A DNA stretch of 64,000 bases from Aminobacter aganoensis (GTDB lineage: Bacteria > Pseudomonadota > Alphaproteobacteria > Rhizobiales > Rhizobiaceae): assembly GCF_014206975.1 (NCBI RefSeq), contig NZ_JACHOU010000012.1, positions 1 to 64,000 of the forward strand, given 5' to 3'. A program made the translations under genes and the position numbers. Numbering within the stretch: the stretch's first letter is position 1; every line of letters begins with the position of its first letter. This document shows, in pieces, positions 7,301 through 63,236 of this stretch. Under the pieces are notes generated by a model. It made no database searches. It saw nothing but the letters and a program-made list of their open reading frames with translations, and had not been told where the DNA came from.

Positions 7301-8779
7301 ATGGCGCAAGCGACAATTTCGGAGACGATCTTCTTTCTCGATCGCACCAGTCGGATCGGGCTGCAGGCGCAGATCCGCGAGACCGTGGTCTCGGCGGTGC
7401 TGTCAGGCCGGTTGCATCCCGGCGCGCAGCTGCCCTCGACGCGCAAGCTGGCCGACTATCTCAACATCTCGCGCATCACCGTGACGCTGGCCTACCAGGA
7501 GCTGGCCTCGCAGGGCTACGTCGAGACGTCGAACCGCAGCGGTTATCGCGTCGCCGGAAATCCGCCGACGAGCGGGCTCGAGGCGGCGGCAGCCGACGTT
7601 GGCGCCGACGAGATCGACTGGTCGGCCAAGCTGCGCTCCAGTTTCATCGTCGCCAAGCAGATGCGCAAGCCGTTGGACTGGCGGCGCTATCCCTATCCGT
7701 TCCTGTACGGCCAGATGGACCCGTCGCTGTTCGACCTGACGGCCTGGCGCGACTGTGCCCGCCGGGCCCTGGCCAGGGAAGATTTCGAACTCATGGCCGG
7801 CGATTTCGCCGCCGCCGACGACGTGCAGTTGGTCAACTACATCTGCTCGCGGACTCTGCCGAGCCGGGGCATCCGCGCCCATCCCGACGAAATCCTTGTG
7901 ACGGTGGGAGCGCAGAACGCACTCTGGATCGTCACCCAGCTCTTGTTGCGCCAGGGCGCGCACGCCGTCTGCGAAAACCCCTGCCATCCCGACATGAGCG
8001 CATCGCTGCGGCTGAGCGGGGCCGAGGTGTCGGCCATCGACGTCGACAAGGAGGGCCTGCCGCCAGCGGCGCTGCCATCACATGTCGACGCCGTCTTCGT
8101 CACGCCCAGCCACCATTCGCCGACCGGCGCCACCATGCCCGTCGAGCGCCGCGCCGCATTGCTGGCCGCTGCCGCTTCCGAGGACTTCATCATTGTCGAG
8201 GACGACTACGAGTTCGAGATGAGCTTCCTGGCGCCGCCATCGCCGGCGCTGAAGTCGTTCGACCGCAGCGGCCGGGTCTTCTACATCGGCAGCTTTTCCA
8301 AGTCGCTGTTTCCCGGGCTGCGGCTGGGCTACCTCGTCGCCCCGGCGCCGGTCATCCGCGAGGCACGAGCGCTGAGGGCGCTGATGCTGCGCCATCCGCC
8401 GGGACACCTGCAACGTACGGCCGCCTACTTCCTGGCGCTCGGCCATCATGACGCCGTGCTGCACCGCATGCGTGCCGAATACCACAAGCGCCACATCGTC
8501 ATGGCCGAAGCGTTGCAGCGCGAGGGCTTCATCATCGCCGGCTCATCCGCCTTCGGCGGAACGTCGTTCTGGATAGAGGGACCCGAGGGACTGGACGCCG
8601 ACCTTTTGATGAAGGAACTCAGGCAGGATGGCGTGCTGATCGAATCAGGCTCGCCGTTCTTCCCGGCCGACGACGGGCCCTGCCGTTTCTTCCGCATGGG
8701 CTATTCGTCGATCCCGCGCAGCCGCATCATCGAGGGCGTGGCCCGAACCGCCGCCCGCGTGAAGCGCATGCTGGCATGA
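7301..8779 (+). CDS. tauR: MocR/GntR-family transcriptional activator of taurine genes
   Basis: 492 aa MocR-type regulator. An N-terminal GntR winged helix (about 18-85; QLPSTRKLADYLNISRITVTLAYQEL) is followed by a class-I aminotransferase-like domain. The PLP-lysine motif IGSFSKSLFPGLRLGY places the Schiff-base lysine at K334, so the effector domain looks PLP-competent. Divergent orientation to tauA and the intergenic repeats identify it as TauR, which activates the tau operon when taurine is present. The ATG at 7301 follows TTGGAACC. Confidence 0.9.
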   Translation: MAQATISETIFFLDRTSRIGLQAQIRETVVSAVLSGRLHPGAQLPSTRKLADYLNISRITVTLAYQELASQGYVETSNRSGYRVAGNPPTSGLEAAAADVGADEIDWSAKLRSSFIVAKQMRKPLDWRRYPYPFLYGQMDPSLFDLTAWRDCARRALAREDFELMAGDFAAADDVQLVNYICSRTLPSRGIRAHPDEILVTVGAQNALWIVTQLLLRQGAHAVCENPCHPDMSASLRLSGAEVSAIDVDKEGLPPAALPSHVDAVFVTPSHHSPTGATMPVERRAALLAAAASEDFIIVEDDYEFEMSFLAPPSPALKSFDRSGRVFYIGSFSKSLFPGLRLGYLVAPAPVIREARALRALMLRHPPGHLQRTAAYFLALGHHDAVLHRMRAEYHKRHIVMAEALQREGFIIAGSSAFGGTSFWIEGPEGLDADLLMKELRQDGVLIESGSPFFPADDGPCRFFRMGYSSIPRSRIIEGVARTAARVKRMLA

Positions 8780-38704: not shown

Positions 38705-39841
38705 CTACATCTTGCACTGCTCGGCGTAAGCGTCGCCGTGCTTTTCGAAGGCGGTGCCGACGATCTTGTTGGTCAGCACGTCGCCTTCCTTGATCACTTC
38801 GCGCACATAGATGTTCTGAACCGGGTGGTTGTTGGTGTTGAAGGTAAACTCGCCGCGAACCGACTTGAAGTCGGCTGCCTTGAGGGCGGCGCGGAAAGCG
38901 TCCTTGTCCTTGACGCTGGCCTTGCCGAGCGCCGACAGGATCAGGTTGGCGGTGTCCCAGCTCTGGGCGGCATAGACCGAGGGCAGGCGCTTGTACTCGG
39001 CCTGGAAGGCTTCGACGAACGCCTTGTTGGCCTCGTTGTCGAGGTCCTTGGACCAGCTTGCCGAGTTCTTGACGCCGAGGGCCGCATCGCCGACCGCAGG
39101 CAAGATGTCCTGGTCGAAGGAGAAGCCGGGGCCCATCACCGGGATGTTGACGCCCGACTGGGCGTACTGCTTCATGAAGGAGATGCCCATGCCGCCAGGC
39201 AGGAAGAAGAACACCGAGTCGGCACCGGAATCGCGAATCTGGGCGATCTCGGCGGCATAGTCGGTCTGGCCGACCTGGGTGTAGGTCTCACCCGCCAGCT
39301 CGCCCTTGTAGTAGCGCTTGAAGCCGGTCAGCGAATCCTTGCCGGCCGGATAGTTCGGCGCGAGGATGAAGGTCTTCTTGTAGTCCTTGTTGGCGTACTG
39401 CCCCATCGCCTCATGGAAGTTGTCGTTCTGGTAGGCGACGTTGAAATAGTTCTGGTTGCACTTGGCGCCGGCCAGTGCCGACGGGCCGGCATTCGGCGAC
39501 AGGTAGATGATGTCCTGCGCCACCGCATTCGGCACCACGGCCATTGCGAGGTTCGACCAGATGATGCCGGTGAGCAGGTCGACCTTGTCGCTCTGGATCA
39601 TCTTTTCAGCCAGCTGCACGGCGATCTCGGGCTTCTGGGCATCGTCCTCGATGACGAGCTCGACGTCCTTGTTGCCCGACTGCTTCATGGCCAGCGCAAA
39701 CGCGTCGCGCATGTCAACGCCAAGGCCTGCGCCGCCGCCCGAAAGCGTGGTGATGACGCCGATCTTGACCGGCTCGGCATAGGCCAGGCCGGACGTCGCC
39801 AGCGACAAGCCGAAGATGCCGGCTGCAATAATCTTCTTCAT
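38705..39841 (-). CDS. Liv-type ABC transporter substrate-binding protein
   Basis: 378 aa, Peripla_BP_6 family. The signal peptide MKKIIAAGIFGLSLATSGLAYA ends near residue 22. The mature start EPVKIGVITTLSGGGAGLG and the APNYPAGKDSLTGFKRYYKG motif are typical. GGAGGGAGA precedes ATG 39841. It follows the tryptophan dioxygenase gene by 44 bp in the same operon, so the ligand is probably an aromatic amino acid or aminobenzoate. It is clearly paralogous to the orphan protein at 62064-63236. Confidence 0.92.
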   Translation of the reverse strand: MKKIIAAGIFGLSLATSGLAYAEPVKIGVITTLSGGGAGLGVDMRDAFALAMKQSGNKDVELVIEDDAQKPEIAVQLAEKMIQSDKVDLLTGIIWSNLAMAVVPNAVAQDIIYLSPNAGPSALAGAKCNQNYFNVAYQNDNFHEAMGQYANKDYKKTFILAPNYPAGKDSLTGFKRYYKGELAGETYTQVGQTDYAAEIAQIRDSGADSVFFFLPGGMGISFMKQYAQSGVNIPVMGPGFSFDQDILPAVGDAALGVKNSASWSKDLDNEANKAFVEAFQAEYKRLPSVYAAQSWDTANLILSALGKASVKDKDAFRAALKAADFKSVRGEFTFNTNNHPVQNIYVREVIKEGDVLTNKIVGTAFEKHGDAYAEQCKM

Positions 39842-39885
39842 TAGGTTCTCCCTCCGCGTGTTCTCGTTGTAACGCAAAAAATGAT

Positions 39886-52324: not shown

Positions 52325-53992
52325 TCAGAGCACGAAGATCCAGTTCGCGAGAAGAACGATCCCCAGCCCGCCGAACAGGGCGACATAGGGCAGCACGCCG
52401 GCGCGCCTTTCACCCTGGCTCTCGGCATCGGCCGAAGGGAAGCGGCCGCCGTCCTGGATGTAGTGCCTGTACCAGAAGACCGGGATGATCAGGAGCGCGG
52501 TCCCCAGGCCGGCCCAGAGTGCCGCCGGGTGCCAGATCTTGGCGCCGGCGCCCATGAACACCGCGTTGACGTAGGACAACACCGTGCCGGCTGCCAGGAT
52601 GAGGGTAGGGGCTCGGTAGGGCCTGCGCCGATCCGGCGAATCGATGCGATGGATCCATCCCGCATTGAGGTTCAGGAAGTTGAAGATCATGTAGCAGACG
52701 TTGGAGACGGCGAGCAGGAAGAAGAAGCTCGTCGCATCCGAAACGGCAACTGCCAGGACGAACAGGTTGAACACCAGGTCGGTCCACATCGCGTTGGTGG
52801 GCGCGCCATGGTGGTTGAGATGTCCGAGATAGCGCGGCAGCCAACCGTCGACGGAACCCTGGTAAAGGGTGCGCGACGAGCCTGCCATCGACGTCATGAT
52901 CGACAAAAGCACGGCCAGCACCATCATCAGGATGAGCGCGTAGAGGATGACGGGACCACCGCCGACCATGATGGCCAAGGCGCGCGCAACCCCTGATCCG
53001 TCGACGATTGAAGGGTCGGTGACGCCCTGGAGGCCGAGAACGCCCTGGAAGGTGAACGGCACGATGATGAAGAGTGCCAGGCACAGAAGGCCCGCGGACA
53101 GGATCGCCTTGTAGGTGTCGTTGGCGGGGTCCTTGAACTCGCGCGTGTAGCAGATGGCCGTCTCGAAGCCGTAGGTCGACCACCCCGCAAGGAAGAGGCC
53201 GGACAGGATGACCGTCCAGCTGGTCAGGTCCCAATCGCCGCTGGTCGGCGCCATGGGCAGGAAGTTGCCGACATCCACCTTGCCGAGCAGGATGGGAACG
53301 ATGCCGACGATCGCCAGCGGGATGATGACGGCAAGCCCGAGATACTTCTGGACGCTGGCGGTCCCATGGATGCCGCGGTGCTGGATTGCAAAGACCAGCA
53401 GCATGAAGGCCGCGCCGATCCAGAACGCGGCATTCAGGGAGAAGGAAACGGGCCCGATCTGGCCGTGGAACAGGGTCCATTCCCTGATGGAGGGGGTGAG
53501 CGCAGCGATCGCCTTGGCCACCTGCTCGTCATAGGCAAGGCCCGTCAGCGACGCGCTGTTCGCAGTGATCCAGTTGATCACCTCGGCCGAATGCGACGAG
53601 GGGACGGACGCGAAGGTGTTTAGCACATAGGCTGCCGCGATCGACGAGCCAAGCGACAGCACCGAGGTCCATGCCACCCAGTTGCACCACACCGAAAGCG
53701 GCGCGATAAACTTCCCGTAACGGAGCCAGGCCGAGGCGCCGTAGATCGAGGCGCCGCCTGATTTGTTGGGAAAGAGCCCGGCGATTTCGGCATAGGTGAA
53801 CGACTGGATAAATCCCATGACCATCGAGATGGCCCAGATGACGATGGCCAGCTTGCCGACCGTTCCCGCCAGGCCGCCGATCGAAAAGAGCACGAAGGCA
53901 GGGGCGCCGCTTGCGATCCAGAATGCTCCTTTCCAGGTAAGGGCTCGTCGCATCTCTTCCTTGGGTATGTCGGTGTCGGTTATCGCTACCAT
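52325..53992 (-). CDS. APC-superfamily amino acid/amine permease
   Basis: 555 aa with about 12 to 14 hydrophobic helices. The first helix region has FWIASGAPAFVLFSIGGLAGTVG and PNKSGGASIYGASAWLRYG, the second GWSTYGFETAICYTREFKDPANDTYKA, as in APC transporters of amino acids, choline and polyamines. The upstream gap carries an inverted repeat shared with the Rieske oxygenase gene, which suggests co-regulation. The substrate could be an N-methylated amine or the demethylated product (inference). Confidence 0.88.
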   Translation of the reverse strand: MVAITDTDIPKEEMRRALTWKGAFWIASGAPAFVLFSIGGLAGTVGKLAIVIWAISMVMGFIQSFTYAEIAGLFPNKSGGASIYGASAWLRYGKFIAPLSVWCNWVAWTSVLSLGSSIAAAYVLNTFASVPSSHSAEVINWITANSASLTGLAYDEQVAKAIAALTPSIREWTLFHGQIGPVSFSLNAAFWIGAAFMLLVFAIQHRGIHGTASVQKYLGLAVIIPLAIVGIVPILLGKVDVGNFLPMAPTSGDWDLTSWTVILSGLFLAGWSTYGFETAICYTREFKDPANDTYKAILSAGLLCLALFIIVPFTFQGVLGLQGVTDPSIVDGSGVARALAIMVGGGPVILYALILMMVLAVLLSIMTSMAGSSRTLYQGSVDGWLPRYLGHLNHHGAPTNAMWTDLVFNLFVLAVAVSDATSFFFLLAVSNVCYMIFNFLNLNAGWIHRIDSPDRRRPYRAPTLILAAGTVLSYVNAVFMGAGAKIWHPAALWAGLGTALLIIPVFWYRHYIQDGGRFPSADAESQGERRAGVLPYVALFGGLGIVLLANWIFVL

Positions 53993-54195
53993 CGGTTTCC
54001 TCCCGGGTTGGCTAAAGTGCTGATGTCGCTGGCCACGGCTCCGCCTGCGGCGTGGAGCGCGCGCTCCATCCGGAGGGTCTCGATCTGCAGGATGCGGCTG
54101 CCTCGAACGGGCTTTTGCCGGATCCCGGTTCCACCTGGTGTCTTGCCGGTTCAGCGTCGGCTAATGAAGGATACAGAGGCGGTAACGACCTACAA

Positions 54196-54213
54196 TGATG
54201 CCGCTTGGCACTA
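54196..54213. promoter_or_regulatory. Copy 1 of the TGGTGCC-type palindrome, upstream of the APC permease gene
   Basis: TGATGCCGCTTGGCACTA matches the copy at 58427-58444 at 16 of 18 positions. It lies about 200 bp before the APC permease start, in a 288-bp region with no gene. Confidence 0.55.
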
Positions 54214-54280
54214 GTTGGCCTTGCGCCTCTGGTGCGGTCTGGCGAGCCCACCTGTGCGGTGGACTCTGTTGGCCCTGGTG

Positions 54281-54844
54281 CTACTTGAGCACACCATTCT
54301 TCCTGGCGGTCCAGGTGGCGATGTAGTCCATCAGCGCCGGCGACAGGCAGTCATAGGGGGCGAGGCCGAGATCGCCGAGCCTTTTGCGGATGCCATCCAT
54401 TTCCGCAGGGTCGACGCCGGCCTCGATGACCGAGGAGACGAAGGCGGCGAAGCCCGGTGCCATCCAGCCGGCTTCCTCGAACCGCTCCGGATGGATGAAG
54501 TCGAGGCCCTGGAACGGATGGTCGCGCTCGACCGGTCCGTACATGTGGACGCCGCACTCGGTGCAGGCGTGGCGCTGGATCAGCGCGCTCGGATCGACCA
54601 CCGCCAGCTTGTCACCGTTTTCGATCACCTCCACATTGTCGCGGCCGGTCACCGCGACGATCGAAAACGCTGCGCCGTCGGGCTTCCAGCATTTCGTGCA
54701 GCCGCAAGCGTGGTTGTGGGCGACGTCGCCCGTGATCTTCACCTTCACCGGCCGATCGGCGCAGGCGCAGACCAGGGTTCCGCCGGCAAAGCTGCCGGTT
54801 CCTGGCTTGACGCCATGGTCCAGGGCGGGATGCAACGACACCAT
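54281..54844 (-). CDS. gfa: S-(hydroxymethyl)glutathione synthase / GFA-family protein
   Basis: 187 aa. Zinc ligands lie in the pattern [13 protein letters not shown] (about 44-56) and [12 protein letters not shown] (about 93-104). Gfa catalyses formation of S-hydroxymethylglutathione from formaldehyde and glutathione. ATG 54844 ([11 protein letters not shown]) has GGAGGAGAA at good spacing; an ATG at 54859 is in frame. It sits 85 bp after the dehydrogenase gene. Confidence 0.9.
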
Positions 54845-54929
54845 GTTCTTCTCCTCCATGCCGGGAATGCGCTGGGGCTGGCGGGTCCGGCTGGCCGCCG
54901 CCGCGGGGTTGTGGGGCGTCTGGGCGCAC

Positions 54930-56042
54930 TCAGAACTGGATGACCGAGCGAATGGACGTGCCCGCATGCATCAGCTCGAAGGCGGTGTTGATCTCTTCGA
55001 GCGGCATGGTGTGGGTGATGAGGTCGTCGATGTTGATCTTGCCCTCCATGTACCAGTCGACGATCCGTGGTACGTCGGTGCGGCCGCGCGCACCGCCAAA
55101 GGCGGTGCCCTTCCAGACTCGGCCGGTGACCAGCTGGAACGGGCGGGTAGCAATTTCCTTGCCCGCCTCGGCGACGCCGATGATGATCGATTCACCCCAG
55201 CCGCGATGGCAGCACTCGAGCGCCTGGCGCATCACCTCGGTGTTGCCGGTGGCATCGAACGAATAGTCGGCGCCGCCGTCGGTCAGGTCCTGGATAGCCT
55301 GCACCACCTTGTCGTTGCCGATCTCGCGCGGATTGACGAAGTCGGTCATGCCGAAGCGGCGCGCCATCTCGGCCTTGGCCGGGTTGATGTCGACGCCGAT
55401 GATCCGGTCGGCACCGACCATGCGGGCGCCCTGGATAACGTTGAGGCCGATACCGCCGAGGCCGAAGACCACGACGTTGGAACCCGGTCGGACCTTGGCC
55501 GTGTAGAGGACGGCACCTATGCCGGTGGTGACGCCGCAGCCGATGTAGCAGATCTTGTCGAAGGGGGCGTCCTCACGCACCCTGGCGAGCGCGATCTCGG
55601 GCAGCACGGTGAAGTTGGAGAAGGTCGAGCAGCCCATATAGTGGAATATCTCGCCGCCGTCGCAGGAGAAGCGCGTCGTCCTGTCAGGCATCAGCCCCTG
55701 GCCCTGGGTGGCGCGGATCGAGGTGCACAAATTGGAGCGCTGCGACAGGCAGGTTTTGCACTGCCGGCACTCGGGCGTGTAGAGCGGGATGACATGATCG
55801 CCCGGCCGCAGGCTGGTGACGCCGGCGCCGACCTCGCGGACGATGCCCGCGCCCTCATGACCGAGGATCGCCGGAAACTTTCCTTCGGAATCGAGCCCCG
55901 AAAGCGTGTAGGCGTCGGTGTGGCAGACCCCCGTCGCCATGACCTCGACAAGAACCTCGCCGGCCTTCGGCCCACCGATCTCGATCGTCTCGACCGTCAG
56001 AGGCCTGTTCGCCTCCCAGGCAACCGCTGCACGTGATTTCAA
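54930..56042 (-). CDS. frmA: S-(hydroxymethyl)glutathione dehydrogenase / class III alcohol dehydrogenase
   Basis: 370 aa zinc MDR enzyme. Catalytic zinc C40-type motif [24 protein letters not shown], the structural zinc four-Cys cluster [15 protein letters not shown], and the NAD motif [15 protein letters not shown]. It oxidises S-hydroxymethylglutathione to S-formylglutathione. With Gfa it detoxifies formaldehyde, the expected by-product of the oxygenase encoded upstream. It lies 63 bp after the reductase gene on the same strand. No S-formylglutathione hydrolase is in the window. Confidence 0.94.
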
Positions 56043-56105
56043 TTGAGGACTCCTGGGCTATGACGTGAAATGAAGCCGGGTTTTCGGCCGGATGCGCGTC
56101 GGCTG

Positions 56106-57122
56106 TCAGGCCGAATTCAGCAACTGCTGCGGTTCCTGGCTGACGAAGGGGTCAGCGTGGCAGTCTTCCGGCCGCGTCCCCTGGGCGCACACGAATTCCT
56201 GGCAGGCGCGGACGAGCGGGGGAGGGCCGCAGGTATAGATTTTCGCGGCGCTGAAATCCGCGATGTGCTCGGCCATCACCGCAAAGATATCGCGCGGGTA
56301 GCGCGTGTCCGGCTCGTCCGTCACGACAGGATGGAAGCGGAAATTGCGATGGCTGGCCGCCAGGTCGCGGAACTGGTCGTCGAAATAGAGGTCGCGCTGC
56401 CACCGCACCGAGAAGAACAGGTCCACCGGGCGGGTCGCCGGCATTGCCAGCGCCTCGTTGAGAATGGACTTGGCCGGGGCCAAGCCGGTCCCGCCGGCCA
56501 CGAGCGCGATCGGCCCGGGATGCTCCTTGCGCAGATAGGCGCTGCCGAACGGTCCGCTGAGGGAAAAGCGGTCGCCCCGGCGCGTCCGTTCGTAGAAATG
56601 GGTGCTGACGTGGCCACCGACACGCGCCCTGACGTGGAATTCCAGCTCCAGCGCGCCCGGGCGATTGGCGAAGGAATACTCGCGCACCGGAAAACCCGGC
56701 AGCCCGAGGACGGCGAACTGGCCAGCCAGAAACTGGACCGGCAGCCCGCCGTCGGGCAGAGCCCTGACCACCACGACGTCATGCGTCACGCGCTCGATCC
56801 CCGTGATCGTGCAGTCGGCCTTCGACAGCGGAGGAAGTGCCGGATCCTCGTCGGCCAGTTGCACCTCGCAATCAGATTTCGGATAGGCCTTGCAGGCGAG
56901 CACGAGGCCTGCCGCGCGCTCGGCGTCGCTCAGGGCCGAGACGTCGTAGGCGCGTTGCTCGACGTCGCCCGACAGGACCTGCGTCTTGCATGCCGAGCAG
57001 GTGCCCTGGCGACAGGCGTAGGGATAGTCGAGGCCGGCCTTCAGGGCCGCGTCGAGGATCGATTGGCCTTGGCGGACATCGATGGCGCAGTCGAGCGGGC
57101 GGATCGACACCTTGTGGTTCAT
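56106..57122 (-). CDS. Ferredoxin-NAD(P)H reductase component of a Rieske oxygenase
   Basis: 338 aa. The N-terminal plant-type [2Fe-2S] domain has C37, C42, C45 and C77. The FAD domain shows REYSFANRP and the GGxxxxFHVR-like ELEFHVRARVGG. The NAD domain has VAGGTGLAPAKSIL and the C-terminal YTCGPPPLV. This BenC-like order (ferredoxin first) differs from GbcB/CntB reductases, which carry it last. It passes electrons from NADH to the Rieske component encoded 70 bp upstream. Confidence 0.9.
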   Translation of the reverse strand: MNHKVSIRPLDCAIDVRQGQSILDAALKAGLDYPYACRQGTCSACKTQVLSGDVEQRAYDVSALSDAERAAGLVLACKAYPKSDCEVQLADEDPALPPLSKADCTITGIERVTHDVVVVRALPDGGLPVQFLAGQFAVLGLPGFPVREYSFANRPGALELEFHVRARVGGHVSTHFYERTRRGDRFSLSGPFGSAYLRKEHPGPIALVAGGTGLAPAKSILNEALAMPATRPVDLFFSVRWQRDLYFDDQFRDLAASHRNFRFHPVVTDEPDTRYPRDIFAVMAEHIADFSAAKIYTCGPPPLVRACQEFVCAQGTRPEDCHADPFVSQEPQQLLNSA

Positions 57123-57192
57123 GAGCGTGTCCCGGCTTCTAGGAGAAGGTGCCGCCCGGCGCCGTGTGCCGCCGGGCGAACTCGAAGGCGTG

Positions 57193-58335
57193 CTATCCGC
57201 GGTTGGCGGTCATGGCGCGGTAGTACATCGACTGGAAGTGATGGATGCCGTGCTCGCTGTTGGACGTCATGTCCTTGTCGATGACGAGGCGGCCTTGGCT
57301 GTAGGCCTGGGAATGGAGGCCGCGCTGGACGCTTTCGACCAGGCCGATGTCTTCCGGCTGGAGGATGCCCTTGATGTAGTCCATGGCCGCGACCTCTTCC
57401 TCGTTGGGAGTCGCCTCGTCGAGGAAGAAGTCCCAATGCTCGAAGGTCGTCTCCGGTCCGGTCGGCATGATGTGCATGAACGACAGGTTGCGGCGGCCGG
57501 GGAAGACATTAAAGGTCACGTTCGGCCACAGATACCAGGCCGCGTACATCAACTGGTTGCCTTGCTTGCTCGCATCGAACTTGTAGGCCGAGTTGTCTTC
57601 GCGGGCCGGCGCGATGTGGCTCGAGCAGATGCCGTAGTTTCTGGTCCGGTAGATGCCGTGGTCGAACAGTTCCACCAGCGCCGGATGGGCCGGCGGGCAA
57701 TGGTAGCATTCCTGGAAATTCTCGACGACGTTCTTCCAGTTGGCCTTGATCTCGAAGGTCAGCCGACCGGCGAACTTCAGCGTTTCCGGTGTATCGACAT
57801 ATTTGCGGACGTCGTCGCCGAATGTACCGGACTGCTCGGCGAGCGCGACCGCGTTCAGGTCGAGGTTGATCCAGACGAAGCCGAGGAAGATCTCGACCTT
57901 GACCGGCTTGAGGCAGAACTCCTCGGACGCGAAGCCATCGACGGAATCGAGGATCGAATTCGACCGAAGCTTGCCATCGAGCCCGTAGGTCCAGGCATGG
58001 TAGGGGCAGACGATCATGCGCGTCTTGCCCTCGCCGGTGAGCAACTGGTGGGCACGGTGCGAGCAGACATTGTGGAAGGCGCGGATCTCGCCGTCGCGGC
58101 CGCGGACGATGGCGATGTTCTGGTCGCCGACCTTGACGGTGGTGTAGGAGCCCGGCGCTTCCAACTGGCTGGAATGGCAGACGAAATTCCAGGACTTGTA
58201 GAATACAGATTCCTTTTCGGCCTCGAAGACATCAGCATCGTAGTATAGCTCGGAAGGAAGCGTATAGGAACGCGCCGGATCATTCGGTTTGAAACGGTCC
58301 AATCCAAAAAACTCATTGTCATTCTTCTTAAGCAT
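57193..58335 (-). CDS. Rieske [2Fe-2S] oxygenase alpha subunit, probable quaternary-ammonium N-demethylase
   Basis: 380 aa. The Rieske cluster ligands are C91, H93, C110 and H113 (CSHRAHQL, CPYHAW). The mononuclear iron pattern is E209-x2-H212-x4-H217 (ECYHCPPAHP). The bridging position holds Glu instead of the usual Asp, which is known for carnitine oxygenase CntA and related quaternary-amine enzymes. N-demethylation would release formaldehyde, matching the gfa/frmA genes behind it. The exact amine is not shown. ATG 58335 follows GTGGAGGAAC. A perfect palindrome lies 92 bp upstream. Confidence 0.88.
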   Translation of the reverse strand: MLKKNDNEFFGLDRFKPNDPARSYTLPSELYYDADVFEAEKESVFYKSWNFVCHSSQLEAPGSYTTVKVGDQNIAIVRGRDGEIRAFHNVCSHRAHQLLTGEGKTRMIVCPYHAWTYGLDGKLRSNSILDSVDGFASEEFCLKPVKVEIFLGFVWINLDLNAVALAEQSGTFGDDVRKYVDTPETLKFAGRLTFEIKANWKNVVENFQECYHCPPAHPALVELFDHGIYRTRNYGICSSHIAPAREDNSAYKFDASKQGNQLMYAAWYLWPNVTFNVFPGRRNLSFMHIMPTGPETTFEHWDFFLDEATPNEEEVAAMDYIKGILQPEDIGLVESVQRGLHSQAYSQGRLVIDKDMTSNSEHGIHHFQSMYYRAMTANRG

Positions 58336-58426
58336 TGGGTTCCTCCACATTCATATTGCCGTCAAAGGCGGGCAACGCACCTCTGCGCTGGGATGAATTC
58401 TCGCTGCAACGGGAGGGAAGTCGCAA

Positions 58427-58444
58427 TGGTGCCGCTTGGCACCA
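58427..58444. promoter_or_regulatory. Copy 2 of the palindrome, upstream of the Rieske oxygenase gene
   Basis: TGGTGCCGCTTGGCACCA has perfect 7-bp arms around GCTT. It lies in the 218-bp gap between the LuxR-type gene and the oxygenase, 92 bp before the oxygenase start. The near-identical copy at 54196-54213 precedes the APC permease. It is a likely binding site for the adjacent LuxR-type regulator. Confidence 0.6.
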
Positions 58445-58553
58445 TCCTGAGGCGCGGCGATGGTCGAAGTATCGCCGACACGGCGCAAACCATGCCATCA
58501 GGGTGAGGCCGGGCGTGGAGTTGAAGCAGGTGAAAGGAGCGGACGAAGCCGGG

Positions 58554-59606
58554 TTAGCGGGCGCTGCGCTCGTCTTCCAGCCGCGCCCTGAGCTGCCTGG
58601 TAAACGGCATCATCGCCGAGATCATCGCCCGTTCGGACGACACGCCGAGCTTGCGGTACATGCGCAGCCGGCAGTTCTTGATCGATCCCTTGGCGATGTT
58701 CAGCTGCTGCGCGATTGCACCGGTGCTGAGGCCGTCGAGCGTGAGCAGCATGATGTCGCGCTCCCGCGGGGTCAACTGGTCGGCCACATCGCGCGCCGCG
58801 CGAACGCTGCTTCCGTCGGCCTCGTCGCTTGCACCGGCGACGTACAACACGACCCCGCCCGGTGCGACGGGGTTTGCTTCATCCAGCGCAAGAGAGCGCA
58901 GGAACGACGGCGCCTGCAGGACCATTTCCGAGATGTCGGCGCGGGACGAGGCCTGGGCCAGCTTGCCCACCCAGCGGTCCCGTTCGCCCAGCTTCTTCCA
59001 GCCGGGCGTCGTGAACACCGACCTGCCTGCGCGGTCCAGCACCACCACGGCGGAGTCCTCGATCGAATGGCAATCAGCGATCGCCATCGAAAGCCTACCA
59101 AACAGCGACCTGATATGCGCGTGGTGGAAGTCCAACATCGCCGGAAAGACACGACGCAGGCGGTCGAGTTCGTCGCTTGCGAACATGCGTTCCCGGCGCT
59201 CGAGAAACAAGGAGATGCAGGCGGTTCCGGGGACCGGCAGGAAAAGCGCCAGTTCATCGGTGAATTCGGCGCGCTTCTTGAAATCGAAGGCGTAGAAGTT
59301 CCTGTCTATCGCCTGGGGCAGGGCCGCATCCAGCGTCTCCACCCGTGGCAGCGAGTTGCCGCGCCACGAGCAGAGATATGGGTCGCCCGCAGCCGGCTTG
59401 GTCTGCAGGTAGTACTCGACCAGCGCGGCATCGATCGCCTTGGTGTGCAGCACGTCAGGATCGCAGCCGGGACGGTAGCGGACGATCCAGCCCATTTCGT
59501 GCGGAAGCAGGTTGCCCACGAGCTCGAGCAGCCGATGGTGAAAGCAAGGCTCGCCGATCTCGCGCGCAAGGCCACCCAAGGCGATTGTCAGGGCATCCTG
59601 GTCCAA
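58554..59606 (-). CDS. LuxR-family helix-turn-helix transcriptional regulator
   Basis: 350 aa. The C-terminal GerE/LuxR domain (about 280-335: LTPRERDIMLLTLDGLSTGAIAQQLNIAKGSIKNCRLRMYRKLGV) has the usual helices. The N-terminal 270 residues match neither an acyl-homoserine-lactone domain nor a receiver by eye, so a small-molecule sensor is possible. It stands immediately upstream of the oxygenase gene on the same strand, and faces the Amt-like gene divergently. Inference: it senses the amine or a product and controls oxygenase, permease and transporter. Confidence 0.87.
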   Translation of the reverse strand: MDQDALTIALGGLAREIGEPCFHHRLLELVGNLLPHEMGWIVRYRPGCDPDVLHTKAIDAALVEYYLQTKPAAGDPYLCSWRGNSLPRVETLDAALPQAIDRNFYAFDFKKRAEFTDELALFLPVPGTACISLFLERRERMFASDELDRLRRVFPAMLDFHHAHIRSLFGRLSMAIADCHSIEDSAVVVLDRAGRSVFTTPGWKKLGERDRWVGKLAQASSRADISEMVLQAPSFLRSLALDEANPVAPGGVVLYVAGASDEADGSSVRAARDVADQLTPRERDIMLLTLDGLSTGAIAQQLNIAKGSIKNCRLRMYRKLGVSSERAMISAMMPFTRQLRARLEDERSAR

Positions 59607-59950: not shown

Positions 59951-60225
59951 TTCACCCATAGTGCAAGCGAACGTAATGCCGGTCAATGGTGCCATTGGTC
60001 ATGCATCTTTCCTACCGAAACAGAGGCCGCGGGCACGGCTTCGAGACGCGGAAGCGGTCATCTGCGCGCCCCAAAAGACTTCCGCATGTACTGGGGCTAA
60101 CGATCGAAATACGCGCCGAAGTCGCCGTTCGTCGGCTTGAGAGTTGGCGGTGCGAAATGGCCGGGTCCGCGATCCGATTTTCCACACCTCTCCGTTGGAT
60201 TCCTGGGGTTTTTCATCGCCAGGCC

Positions 60226-60245
60226 ATTTTCCCTGTCAGGAAAAT
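60226..60245. promoter_or_regulatory. AT-rich palindrome, copy B
   Basis: ATTTTCC-N6-GGAAAAT is a perfect 7-bp inverted repeat, 153 bp before the Amt-like start. It resembles copy A 298 bp upstream and probably marks a regulator site. Confidence 0.4.
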
Positions 60246-60398
60246 AGTTTCACTCCCTTGATTTAATCTTCGCCCCAAAACAAAGTAGTTCGACCCATTT
60301 GCCCTTGGGTAACGTCCAGGCCTCCGCCTAGTCGGGGCAAGGAAAGCCACAAAGAAAAGCCGGGGACAGGGGCAGCCGGCATCAGAGGGGATAAATAT

Positions 60399-61748
60399 AT
60401 GGAAGGAACGACGACAGCATTTTTTGCTGGACAGGTGACGCTCACCCAACTTGTCCAGAACCTGGTCTATGCCTCAGGTACGGTGGGCGCGCTGACGGTG
60501 GTTGCCGGTCTTCTGATGATCGATGCGGGCACCACGCGAAGCGCCAATCTCTACAATTCCACGATCGAGAAGATGGTGGGCTTCTTCATCGGTTTCGCAA
60601 CCTATTTCATTATCGGCTTCGGCTTCTGGGCGGGGCAGTACTACATCATGTCCGGCGGAACCATGATGGATTCGCTGAAGGACTGGTGGTTCTTCGGCGC
60701 GCTGTCGAACGCGCATGCACAAAAGGTCGATCCGGCGGTCTGGCCCGGGCTCAATACGTTCCAGATCTTCATCTTCTTCCTTGCCTGCTTTGCAGGCATC
60801 GTGAACGTCCTGCTCCATTTCGCGGTGTCGGAGCGCATGAAGGCCTCCGCCTTCTACGTCACCTGCGTCGTGGCCACCGTGGTCTCCTCGGTCCTGAGCT
60901 GGGCGGTCTGGGGGTCGGTTGGCCCGCTGACCAACGCCGGCTTCCATGACTTCTTCGGTATCGGGTTCGTCTATATCTTCCCGACCGGCATCGCGATGGT
61001 CCTGGTTCCGCAACTGGGCAAGCGCCCGGGCATGTTCGCGCCTCATCCGAAGGTGGCGTCCTACAAGGCACCTTCGATCGGGCTTGCTGCAACCGGCCTG
61101 ATCACCATCTTCGCAGGTCTGCCGATGGTCATCCTGTCCTGCCTGTTCTTCTTCGATCCCGAGACCTATGCTGTTTCGGTGACAATGGCCGACACCAGCG
61201 TGGGCATCGCCTTCAACAACTACGGCATCTCCTGGGCTGGTGGCGCCATCACCGGTGCGATCATCTCCTACCGTACGAAGAACTACATCTATCTGCTGCT
61301 CGGCCCGCTTGCCGGGTACGTTTCGGGCGCGCCAGGGTTCGACGTCTACCTGCCCTGGCAGATGTTCCTTGTCTCGCTCGGCGCGCCGATTGCGGCCTGG
61401 GTCGTCTACAACTTCACATCCAAGCGTGAGATCGACGAGCACAAGCTCTTCCCGCTGTTCATCGGCGCGGGTTTCTATGCGCTCATCATGGTCGGGCTGG
61501 TCAAGTCGGGCACGCCGAGGGGCGGCTACTTCGGCATCACCGAAGGCGCATATGCGTTCCAGCACGGTCAAATCAGCGTGTTGATGCAACTTGCCGGCTT
61601 CGCGCTCTGCCTTGGCGCTGGCATCCTGACCGGACTGGTCCTGTCGGTGGTGCTCAAGGTCACAACCGGGCTGCGGGTGCCGGAGGACGCTCAGGCGGAA
61701 GGCCTGGACAAGCTGATCTGGGGCCTCGACAACGAAAGCAAGAGCTGA
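60399..61748 (+). CDS. Amt/Mep/Rh-superfamily membrane protein lacking the twin-histidine pore motif
   Basis: 449 aa with about 11 hydrophobic helices and an Amt-like C-terminus (VTTGLRVPEDAQAEGLD, close to the AmtB tail GLRVPEEQEREGLD). In alignment by eye to E. coli AmtB, D160 is kept (HDFFG, D184), but H168 becomes Tyr (GFVYIFPTG, Y192) and H318 becomes Phe (LFPLFIGAG, F354). Both pore histidines are therefore absent. It is unlikely to be an ordinary ammonium channel. Context (oxygenase, formaldehyde detoxification) suggests transport of a methylated amine or quaternary ammonium ion (inference). Confidence 0.85.
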   Translation: MEGTTTAFFAGQVTLTQLVQNLVYASGTVGALTVVAGLLMIDAGTTRSANLYNSTIEKMVGFFIGFATYFIIGFGFWAGQYYIMSGGTMMDSLKDWWFFGALSNAHAQKVDPAVWPGLNTFQIFIFFLACFAGIVNVLLHFAVSERMKASAFYVTCVVATVVSSVLSWAVWGSVGPLTNAGFHDFFGIGFVYIFPTGIAMVLVPQLGKRPGMFAPHPKVASYKAPSIGLAATGLITIFAGLPMVILSCLFFFDPETYAVSVTMADTSVGIAFNNYGISWAGGAITGAIISYRTKNYIYLLLGPLAGYVSGAPGFDVYLPWQMFLVSLGAPIAAWVVYNFTSKREIDEHKLFPLFIGAGFYALIMVGLVKSGTPRGGYFGITEGAYAFQHGQISVLMQLAGFALCLGAGILTGLVLSVVLKVTTGLRVPEDAQAEGLDKLIWGLDNESKS

Positions 61749-61755
61749 GCAAAGC

Positions 61756-61787
61756 GCCGGTGCCGCAATTCAACTCGCGGCACCGGC
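61756..61787 (+). terminator. Hairpin after the Amt-like gene
   Basis: GCCGGTGCCGC and GCGGCACCGGC form a perfect 11-bp stem with a 10-nt loop, 8 bp after the stop. There is no T-tract, so it is terminator-like rather than a classic intrinsic terminator. The rest of the 315-bp gap to 62063 holds one further hairpin. Confidence 0.55.
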
Positions 61788-62063: not shown

Positions 62064-63236
62064 TCACTCCGCCGGCATCTTGCACTCGGCGGCATAGCTG
62101 TCGCTGTGTGCGGTCAACACTTTGTTCTCGGTCTTCAGCACCATCTTGCCGTCCGGGCCTTTCTCGGCCTTGAGCGCGTACCAGTCCTGGGTTGGATGCT
62201 GGTTCGGGCCGAACTTGAACGAGCCACGCACGGTCGGGATTTCGGAAGACAGCAGCGTCTTGCGGAAGGCCGGAAGATCATCGACTCCAGCCTTCTCGAG
62301 ACCGGTTCCGATCAGCAGTGCTGCATCATAGCCCTGGGCGGCGTAGTAGGTGATCGGACGGTCGCCGAACTTTGCCTTCCAGGCGGCGACGAAGCCCTTG
62401 TTGACCGGATTGTCGAAGTCATCGTTCCAGTGGCTGGTGACCTTGACGCCGAGAGCTGCATCGCCCACCGCGCCGACGATGACATGGTCGAGCGACGCCG
62501 GATGGACCACCATCGGAATATCCTTGAGCAGGCCTGCCTGCTGGTACTGACGCATGAAGGCGATGCCGAGACCACCGGGCTCGAATTCGTAGACGACGTC
62601 GGGCTTGGCGGCACGGATCTGCGCCATCTCGGCGGCGAAGTCGGTCTGGTCGAGGCCGGTATAGATCTCGCCGACCACCTCGCCCTTGTAGAAGCGCTTG
62701 AAGGCGCCCATGGTTTCCTTGCCAGCCTGGTAGTTCGGCGCGATCAGGAAGGCCTTCTTGTAGCCGAGCGACTGAGCGAGCGCGCCGGCGCTTTCGCCCT
62801 GGCTGTCGTCCTGCCACGAGCTGACGAAATAGTTGGGGTGGCAGTCCTTGCCAGCGAAAGTGGCCGACGCGGTGTTGGCGCTGACGTAGATCGCGTCGTT
62901 GTCGAGGATGTCGGGCACTGCCGCGTAGGCGACATTGGCGAAGACCATGCCGGTGAACAGCTTGATGTCCTGGTCGGACAGCATCTTCTCGGCGATCTGC
63001 TTGGCGTTACCGGGCTTCAGGCCATCATCCTCGACGACCAGTTCGACATCCTTGCCGCCGAGCTTGCCCTTGGTCTGGTCGATGGCCAGTTGGAAACCAT
63101 CGCGGATGTCCTGGCCAAGATAGCCGGCCGGCCCCGACAGCGTCGTGATCATGCCGATCTTGACCGGATCCTCGGCGTAAGCCGCACTCACCGATAGCGC
63201 CAAGGCGGCAGCTGATAGAATTCCCTTCAACTTCAT
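62064..63236 (-). CDS. Orphan Liv-type ABC transporter substrate-binding protein
   Basis: 390 aa, Peripla_BP_6 family. Signal peptide MKLKGILSAAALALSVSAAYA (residues 1-21), then EDPVKIGMITTLSGPAGYLGQDIRDGFQLA. It parallels the Liv binding protein at 38705-39841 throughout: the APNY.AGK motif, FKR.YKGE, GDAALGVK and an ECKM C-terminus. No permease or ATPase lies beside it, so it may feed the Liv transporter encoded 25 kb away or one outside the window. GGGAGAGC lies upstream of the ATG. Confidence 0.9.
   Translation of the reverse strand: MKLKGILSAAALALSVSAAYAEDPVKIGMITTLSGPAGYLGQDIRDGFQLAIDQTKGKLGGKDVELVVEDDGLKPGNAKQIAEKMLSDQDIKLFTGMVFANVAYAAVPDILDNDAIYVSANTASATFAGKDCHPNYFVSSWQDDSQGESAGALAQSLGYKKAFLIAPNYQAGKETMGAFKRFYKGEVVGEIYTGLDQTDFAAEMAQIRAAKPDVVYEFEPGGLGIAFMRQYQQAGLLKDIPMVVHPASLDHVIVGAVGDAALGVKVTSHWNDDFDNPVNKGFVAAWKAKFGDRPITYYAAQGYDAALLIGTGLEKAGVDDLPAFRKTLLSSEIPTVRGSFKFGPNQHPTQDWYALKAEKGPDGKMVLKTENKVLTAHSDSYAAECKMPAE

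Follow-up and report, generated by a model that had tools for sequence, protein, structure and literature searches.

An Amt-fold protein with tyrosine and phenylalanine at the two pore-histidine positions, and its genomic link to di- and trimethylamine catabolism

Amt proteins are textbook selective ammonium conductors, and PMC9040831 presents a pair of pore histidines (twin-His) as the motif that characterises them. The 64,000-nucleotide stretch of Aminobacter aganoensis DNA analysed here (the window; contig C12 of 52 in a 5.76-Mb assembly) encodes an Amt-fold membrane protein, AMT-YF, for which loss of both histidines had been proposed. What would such a pore carry, and in the service of which pathway? 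A natural subfamily with tyrosine and phenylalanine fixed at these positions directly tests the role of the twin-His.

Gene, fold and relatives of AMT-YF

The AMT-YF gene is intact, with GAGGGG 8 bases 5' of its ATG, and its features and neighbours are collected in Table 1. AMT-YF scores about 93-94 bits against PF00909 (Amt/Mep/Rh), for which the gathering score is 23.2. Its AlphaFold2 model (mean pLDDT 83.8, pTM 0.88) has eleven long helices; the best structural matches are Amt/AmtB structures (2b2f, E 1.1e-13; 2ns1; 2nuu), with a TM-score of 0.82 (by target length) and an rmsd of 5.1 against 2ns1. As judged from this predicted model, AMT-YF has the Amt fold. Together with the profile match and a GLD motif, this agrees with the original prediction of an Amt fold and an Amt C-terminal tail. 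Against TIGR00836, the ammonium transporter subfamily, AMT-YF reached 107.1 bits where the cut-off is 343.3. Assignment to the marine subtype TIGR03644 was ruled out (63 bits versus 514).

Table 1. Coordinates of AMT-YF, its pore codons and neighbouring features in the window
Feature	Position	Strand	Basis and remarks
AMT-YF, Amt-fold membrane protein	60399-61748	+	ORF, PF00909 profile, predicted model; intact, 449 aa, ATG start
D42 codon, at AmtB Y32 position	60522-60524	+	Row counts in the alignment and hhalign pairing
D184 codon, equivalent to AmtB D160	60948-60950	+	MAFFT and hhalign
Y192 codon, replaces pore histidine H168	60972-60974	+	MAFFT and hhalign
F354 codon, replaces pore histidine H318	61458-61460	+	MAFFT and hhalign
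Region upstream of AMT-YF, common to A. niigataensis (L023)	60043-60398	+	Sequence comparison
Inverted repeat, 7-base arms ATTTTCC / GGAAAAT, 6-base spacer	60226-60245		Also in L023 at 7829-7848
LuxR-type (GerE HTH) regulator	58554-59606	-	ORF and profile; divergent from AMT-YF, 792 bp between
Rieske oxygenase	57193-58350	-	Profile; nearest solved relative carnitine monooxygenase CntA
2Fe-2S/FAD/NAD reductase, presumed Rieske partner	56106-57122	-	Profiles
S-(hydroxymethyl)glutathione dehydrogenase (AdhC)	54930-56042	-	TIGR02818, 621.7 bits, cut-off 543.95
S-(hydroxymethyl)glutathione synthase (GFA)	54281-54967	-	TIGR02820, 317.3, cut-off 234.55
APC permease, TMAO-permease (TmoP) equivalog	52325-53992	-	NF053774, 786.5 bits, cut-off 690; end of the Rieske series

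One scan of 84,980 species genomes with six peptide patterns taken from AMT-YF, which relatives lacking all six escape, returned 65 loci that are 65-98% identical: 55 in Rhodobacterales, 4 in Thiotrichales, one each in Hyphomicrobiales, Nitrosomonadales and Chromatiales, and 3 without an order. The nearest named relative is that of A. niigataensis (98% amino-acid identity). Beyond AMT-YF itself, the next matches in genome searches (22-31% identity) belong to a second amine-linked group, which we call A2, and in a search of plasmids 12 of 15 records matched AMT-YF at less than 60% (24.7-27.8%), some of which were classified. A quick tree with 71 rows placed the 20 AMT-YF rows, drawn from alpha-, beta- and gammaproteobacteria, on one side of a branch with SH-aLRT 98; this tree includes one wrong-ORF row (L122_c, branch length 10) that was excluded from later residue counts and from hhalign. 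The gene is under purifying selection: codons that differ between the window and locus L031 number 158 for synonymous and 105 for nonsynonymous changes, and the differences by codon position are 86, 47 and 229.

A 1.75-kb segment (60043-61787), comprising the gene with 356 bases upstream and 39 downstream, is 91.9% identical in A. niigataensis, where a tRNA-Met gene is some 200 bases away; the flanks differ. The AMT-YF gene and its upstream region may thus travel as a unit. The inverted repeat upstream is an imperfect dyad, and its calculated expectation of 0 indicates uniqueness rather than significance, the pattern having been copied from the site itself. As the sequence around both copies is itself 92% identical, their conservation says little, and the repeat is at most a weak candidate for an operator.

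Residues of the pore

We aligned 72 AMT-YF pieces from 69 loci with 21 A2 rows (20 genes) and two canonical Amts, including E. coli AmtB, by MAFFT; L081, L083 and L086 are counted twice among the 72, as their matches are split into two pieces in different frames. The position of H168 held tyrosine in 68 of 72 pieces and that of H318 phenylalanine in 69, the remaining 4 and 3 being gaps. At the D160 position aspartate was present in 68 pieces, again with 4 gaps. A second method, global hhalign of the AMT-YF profile against a canonical profile, paired H168 with Y192, H318 with F354, Y32 with D42, F103 with F127, F107 with F131, W148 with W171 and D160 with D184, so that AMT-YF keeps the outer aromatics (F103, F107, W148) and the aspartate (D160), and Y192 and F354 stand where the twin-His would be. 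The placement of both substitutions and of the recruiting aspartate D184, first made by eye, therefore holds by two methods and across the subfamily. Mean column identity in the aligned set was 72% (36 rows, 2 of them A2). Chance, a frameshift or a sequencing artefact as the source of the two substitutions was ruled out, given their fixation over 69 loci. The frame split in L081, L083 and L086 may reflect either assembly error or decay of the gene. On the evidence of these alignments, AMT-YF is a real, conserved pore variant with tyrosine and phenylalanine for both pore histidines.

Both histidines were kept in all 29 canonical Amts sampled, a set made of the best-scoring matches in 60 genomes and biased to typical Amts, and in all 21 A2 sequences; there may be further histidine-less Amts beyond these 29 and 21. 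The position of AmtB Y32, one of five residues that simulations identified as important for conducting the substrate (PMC3647058), was aspartate in 20/20 AMT-YF rows, glutamate in 19/21 A2 rows (2 gaps) and tyrosine in 29/29 canonical rows. The two amine-linked groups are thus both acidic at this position; the histidines are missing from AMT-YF alone.

Elsewhere in the pore, the equivalents of W212, F215 and S263 differed by method (L249, F252 and A305 by hhalign; L241, V244 and L301 by MAFFT), and we therefore leave the second gate phenylalanine out of our conclusions. Both methods placed S219 on S260, where an ungapped reading of the helix would give C248. Histidines are fixed at other sites of AMT-YF in 20/20 rows (H140, H183, H216, H348 and H389). 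Only H140 is on a pore helix, two residues past pore position 114, and from helical spacing it probably faces away from the pore.

A2 Amts have alanine at the F103 position and form a separate clade, and unlike AMT-YF they retain the twin-His; they resemble it in the acidic residue described above and in being its nearest matches. Some lie beside gmaS, mgsA or Tmm, and they are possibly monomethylammonium transporters. Examples are found at L090 (25882-27255), at L077 (9553-10812) and, as L002, in the window's own genome. The latter encodes two PF00909 proteins besides AMT-YF, a canonical Amt (398.5 bits) and an A2 Amt (185 bits), each with both histidines.

These comparisons bear on whether AMT-YF is an ammonium exporter, or an ordinary ammonium/monomethylammonium channel, that vents ammonia from amine catabolism. 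Such a role would suit the report that methylamine-degrading Rhodobacteraceae feed diatoms ammonium, with amt recurring in their clusters (accessible text of PMC7574528). Against it stand the histidines kept in every canonical Amt sampled, the two histidine-bearing Amts already available to the window strain, and L077 and L090, where an A2 Amt beside mgsA shares a locus with AMT-YF. We consider venting of ammonium very unlikely.

Genes that accompany AMT-YF

In the window, a minus-strand series (52325-59606) runs from the LuxR-type regulator through the Rieske oxygenase, reductase, AdhC and GFA genes to the TmoP equivalog, and AMT-YF diverges from it. ORFs and profiles thus recover the Rieske oxygenase, formaldehyde detoxification genes and LuxR-type regulator that had been named as neighbours. 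The Rieske oxygenase matched CntA (6y8j) with 289.1 bits over residues 25-375, and ECYHC is common to both; the glutamate of this motif presumably lies at the inter-subunit bridge in CntA-type enzymes. It is not an equivalog of the glycine betaine monooxygenase GbcA (NF058607, 179.8 versus 670). The enzyme may be an N-demethylase: demethylation is suggested by the glutathione-dependent formaldehyde genes AdhC and GFA, both above their cut-offs. The true start of GFA is probably further in, since the profile match begins at residue 45. Elsewhere the strain has Tmm, Tdm and two TmoP-like genes on C13 (L109), DmmDABC on C39 and GmaS/Mgs/Mgd on C19, so that a trimethylamine route is present in trans.

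The window also holds two branched-chain-amino-acid-type substrate-binding proteins (38705-39877 and 62064-63236) that are 46% identical, with an ABC permease set recognised by eye at 35.8-38.4 kb; two more matches to these binding proteins (61-66%) occur in L108.

We surveyed genes within 8 kb of AMT-YF at 68 other loci (65 genomic, 3 plasmid). None of the 68 had a Rieske, AdhC or GFA gene of the window type (E 1e-15, 35% identity, 40% coverage). The question whether homologues without the twin-His always lie beside Rieske and GFA genes is accordingly answered in the negative, and these genes were ruled out as general partners. What recurred was Tmm (trimethylamine monooxygenase, 34 loci), Dmm (dimethylamine monooxygenase, 23), N-methylglutamate genes (21), Tdm (TMAO demethylase, 15), DmmD (14) and TmoP (4). 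At least one of Tmm, Tdm, Dmm and DmmD was present at 43/68 loci, or 44/68 with TmoP added. The original prediction of a role with methylated ammonium compounds thus keeps its amine link and loses its link to a quaternary-amine Rieske oxygenase and GFA. Annotated plasmid records near AMT-YF name dimethylamine monooxygenase subunits and type III glutamate-ammonia ligase, and the Tdm of L088 scores above its equivalog cut-off. A substrate-binding protein beside tmm ("TmoX-like") was matched by no TmoX model.

This survey also weighs on the idea that AMT-YF transports TMAO or a quaternary amine, as substrate of the Rieske oxygenase. In the window the TmoP equivalog and the CntA-like enzyme are indeed neighbours of AMT-YF, but the absence of such a Rieske gene from the other 68 loci speaks against it, and quaternary ions exceed in size any Amt substrate known to us. 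TmoXWV and TmoP, moreover, already serve TMAO (PMC5520151, as far as its text was available). We regard this substrate as highly improbable; the partners Tmm, Tdm, Dmm and the N-methylglutamate genes point to di- or trimethylamine rather than to quaternary amines.

Core amine genes were absent within 8 kb at 24/68 loci, 16 with full 8-kb flanks and 8 on short contigs. Leisingera accounts for 11 of these 24, with 0/11 linked; in these genomes (L048 and ten others) Tmm and DmmC are present away from AMT-YF. In L048 a transposase-like ORF was seen by eye near the gene. A whole-genome search covering 29 of the 65 loci, chiefly ones without Tmm or Dmm in the neighbourhood, found DmmC in 21/29 and Tmm in 24/29. 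Nearby or elsewhere, Tmm or DmmC is encoded in 61/65 AMT-YF genomes; neither was found in L044, L057 and L078, and L080 was not called. In L057 and L078 the ORFs were read by eye and no methylamine gene was recognised.

In the third, a Methylophilaceae MAG, two trimethylamine dehydrogenase homologues (1426 and 1120.5 bits against 1djn) flank AMT-YF and a TmoP equivalog (3003-12255 of L044). Trimethylamine dehydrogenase is a route unrelated to Tmm with the same substrate, and AMT-YF therefore seems to follow the substrate and not one enzyme.

Tmm was present in 46/55 Rhodobacterales carriers (9 not called, 0 shown absent) compared with 67/295 genomes in the family to which the L048 Leisingera belongs. 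The corresponding p of 8.8e-18, with uncalled genomes taken as absent, is inflated, as the genomes are related, the carriers phylogenetically clustered (55/65 Rhodobacterales) and the background holds at least one carrier. In the window's own family AMT-YF occurs in 2/199 genomes and DmmC in 36/199, both carriers included. The other 34 of these 36, two from the same genus among them, lack AMT-YF, which marks it as dispensable for the amine pathway; it is not essential to the pathway in all kin of carriers. These results establish a strong genomic link of AMT-YF to di- and trimethylamine catabolism.

Proposed function and comparison with known transporters

Taking pore and context together, we propose that AMT-YF, with its Amt fold, transports di- and/or trimethylamine, most likely in the form of the ammonium cations, and assign this reading, drawn from sequence and gene context, a probability of roughly 0.57. 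More tentatively, and at somewhat less than even odds, it would be the first di-/trimethylammonium transporter of the Amt superfamily, passing the intact cation through an aromatic, acid-balanced pore with no deprotonation relay, and the missing importer in many organisms that degrade methylated amines in the sea and in soil. The methylated ammonium cation would be recruited at the retained outer aromatic site. Cation-pi contacts with Tyr192 and Phe354, which would line the pore, would then let it pass, and Asp42 would balance its charge. With no histidine relay left, it would not be split into amine and proton as has been proposed for AmtB. In the window strain the neighbouring Rieske oxygenase could either use or produce the amine, and formaldehyde, if that enzyme demethylates, would be cleared by GFA and AdhC. 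A special importer is not needed in every setting, given that E. coli expressing dmmABC consumed 1 mM DMA (PMC5520151).

Engineered AmtB offers a counterpart. Among 14 variants of the pore histidines, only H168E was effective for methylamine; the other single variants were dead for methylamine in yeast assays, and with alanine at both positions neither methylamine nor ammonia was transported in yeast growth and uptake assays (accessible text of PMC3647058). Elsewhere, replacing the histidines with alanine or acids gave channel-like or less selective conduction (PMC9040831, PMC10433425). None of these variants predicts the behaviour of AMT-YF, which differs at other pore positions too.

Loss of transport in AmtB lacking both histidines would also suit a non-conducting receptor that, like the sensor Amts, detects a methylated amine (or ammonium) and passes the signal on to a partner. 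Two sensor/receptor Amts, 6eu6 and 8qj3, are among the best structural matches of the model, and a relative of the TmoR-type regulator (FCD) lies within 8 kb at 27/68 loci, the label TmoR resting on its position beside tmm. AMT-YF, however, ends 12 residues after the GLD motif with no fused signalling domain, the sensor KsAmt5 keeps the twin-His (PMC10433425), and TmoR is a DNA-binding repressor of tmm whose effectors are given as DMA or TMAO (PMC13390433, in the text available for both). A receptor is therefore unlikely. In a Ruegeria pomeroyi strain other than DSS-3 (locus L070), AMT-YF adjoins an FCD regulator placed like tmoR; with tmoR of DSS-3 being SPO1553 (PMC13390433, which counts 31 induced TMA-cluster genes), gene order suggests that AMT-YF of DSS-3 is probably SPO1554, a tag for which our literature search found no paper.

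Among the titles and passages listed, that search, mostly without subscription papers, figures and supplements, showed neither histidine-less bacterial Amts nor Amt-type DMA or TMA transport, and the pore variant is apparently undescribed so far. The claim of novelty would concern the missing histidines and not the gene's presence in such clusters: the legend to the pathway/dmm-region figure of PMC5520151 gives amtB as "ammonia transporter", and PMC7574528 describes amt, named ammonium transporter, as repeatedly co-occurring in methylamine clusters, the accessible text of neither separating AMT-YF from A2. If our reading is right, AMT-YF would be an importer for amines important in marine nitrogen and aerosol chemistry, database records that call it "ammonium transporter", such as those of plasmids, would be corrected, and nature would have supplied an answer to the purpose of the twin-His.

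AMT-YF shares with AmtB the fold, the eleven long helices, the F103, F107, W148 and D160 positions and GLD in the C-terminal tail, and differs in Y192 and F354 for the pore histidines and D42 for Y32, at about 20% identity. Human RhD and RhCE are superfamily members that probably also lack the pore histidines, for which our literature search gave no confirmation; unlike AMT-YF, they are animal blood-group proteins. The fungal ammonium transporters Mep1 and Mep3 provide another natural loss of a pore histidine. In these, unlike in AMT-YF, only the first histidine is replaced, by glutamate (PMC9040831). In the text available from a 2024 paper, only MttP and TmaT are named as implicated in microbial TMA transport (PMC11708041). 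TmaT, a Na+/TMA symporter, belongs to the unrelated BCCT family and is Na+-coupled, whereas AMT-YF has the Amt fold; the likeness lies in the substrate proposed here and in aromatic residues as the site for TMA, which TmaT holds in aromatic boxes (PMC11708041).
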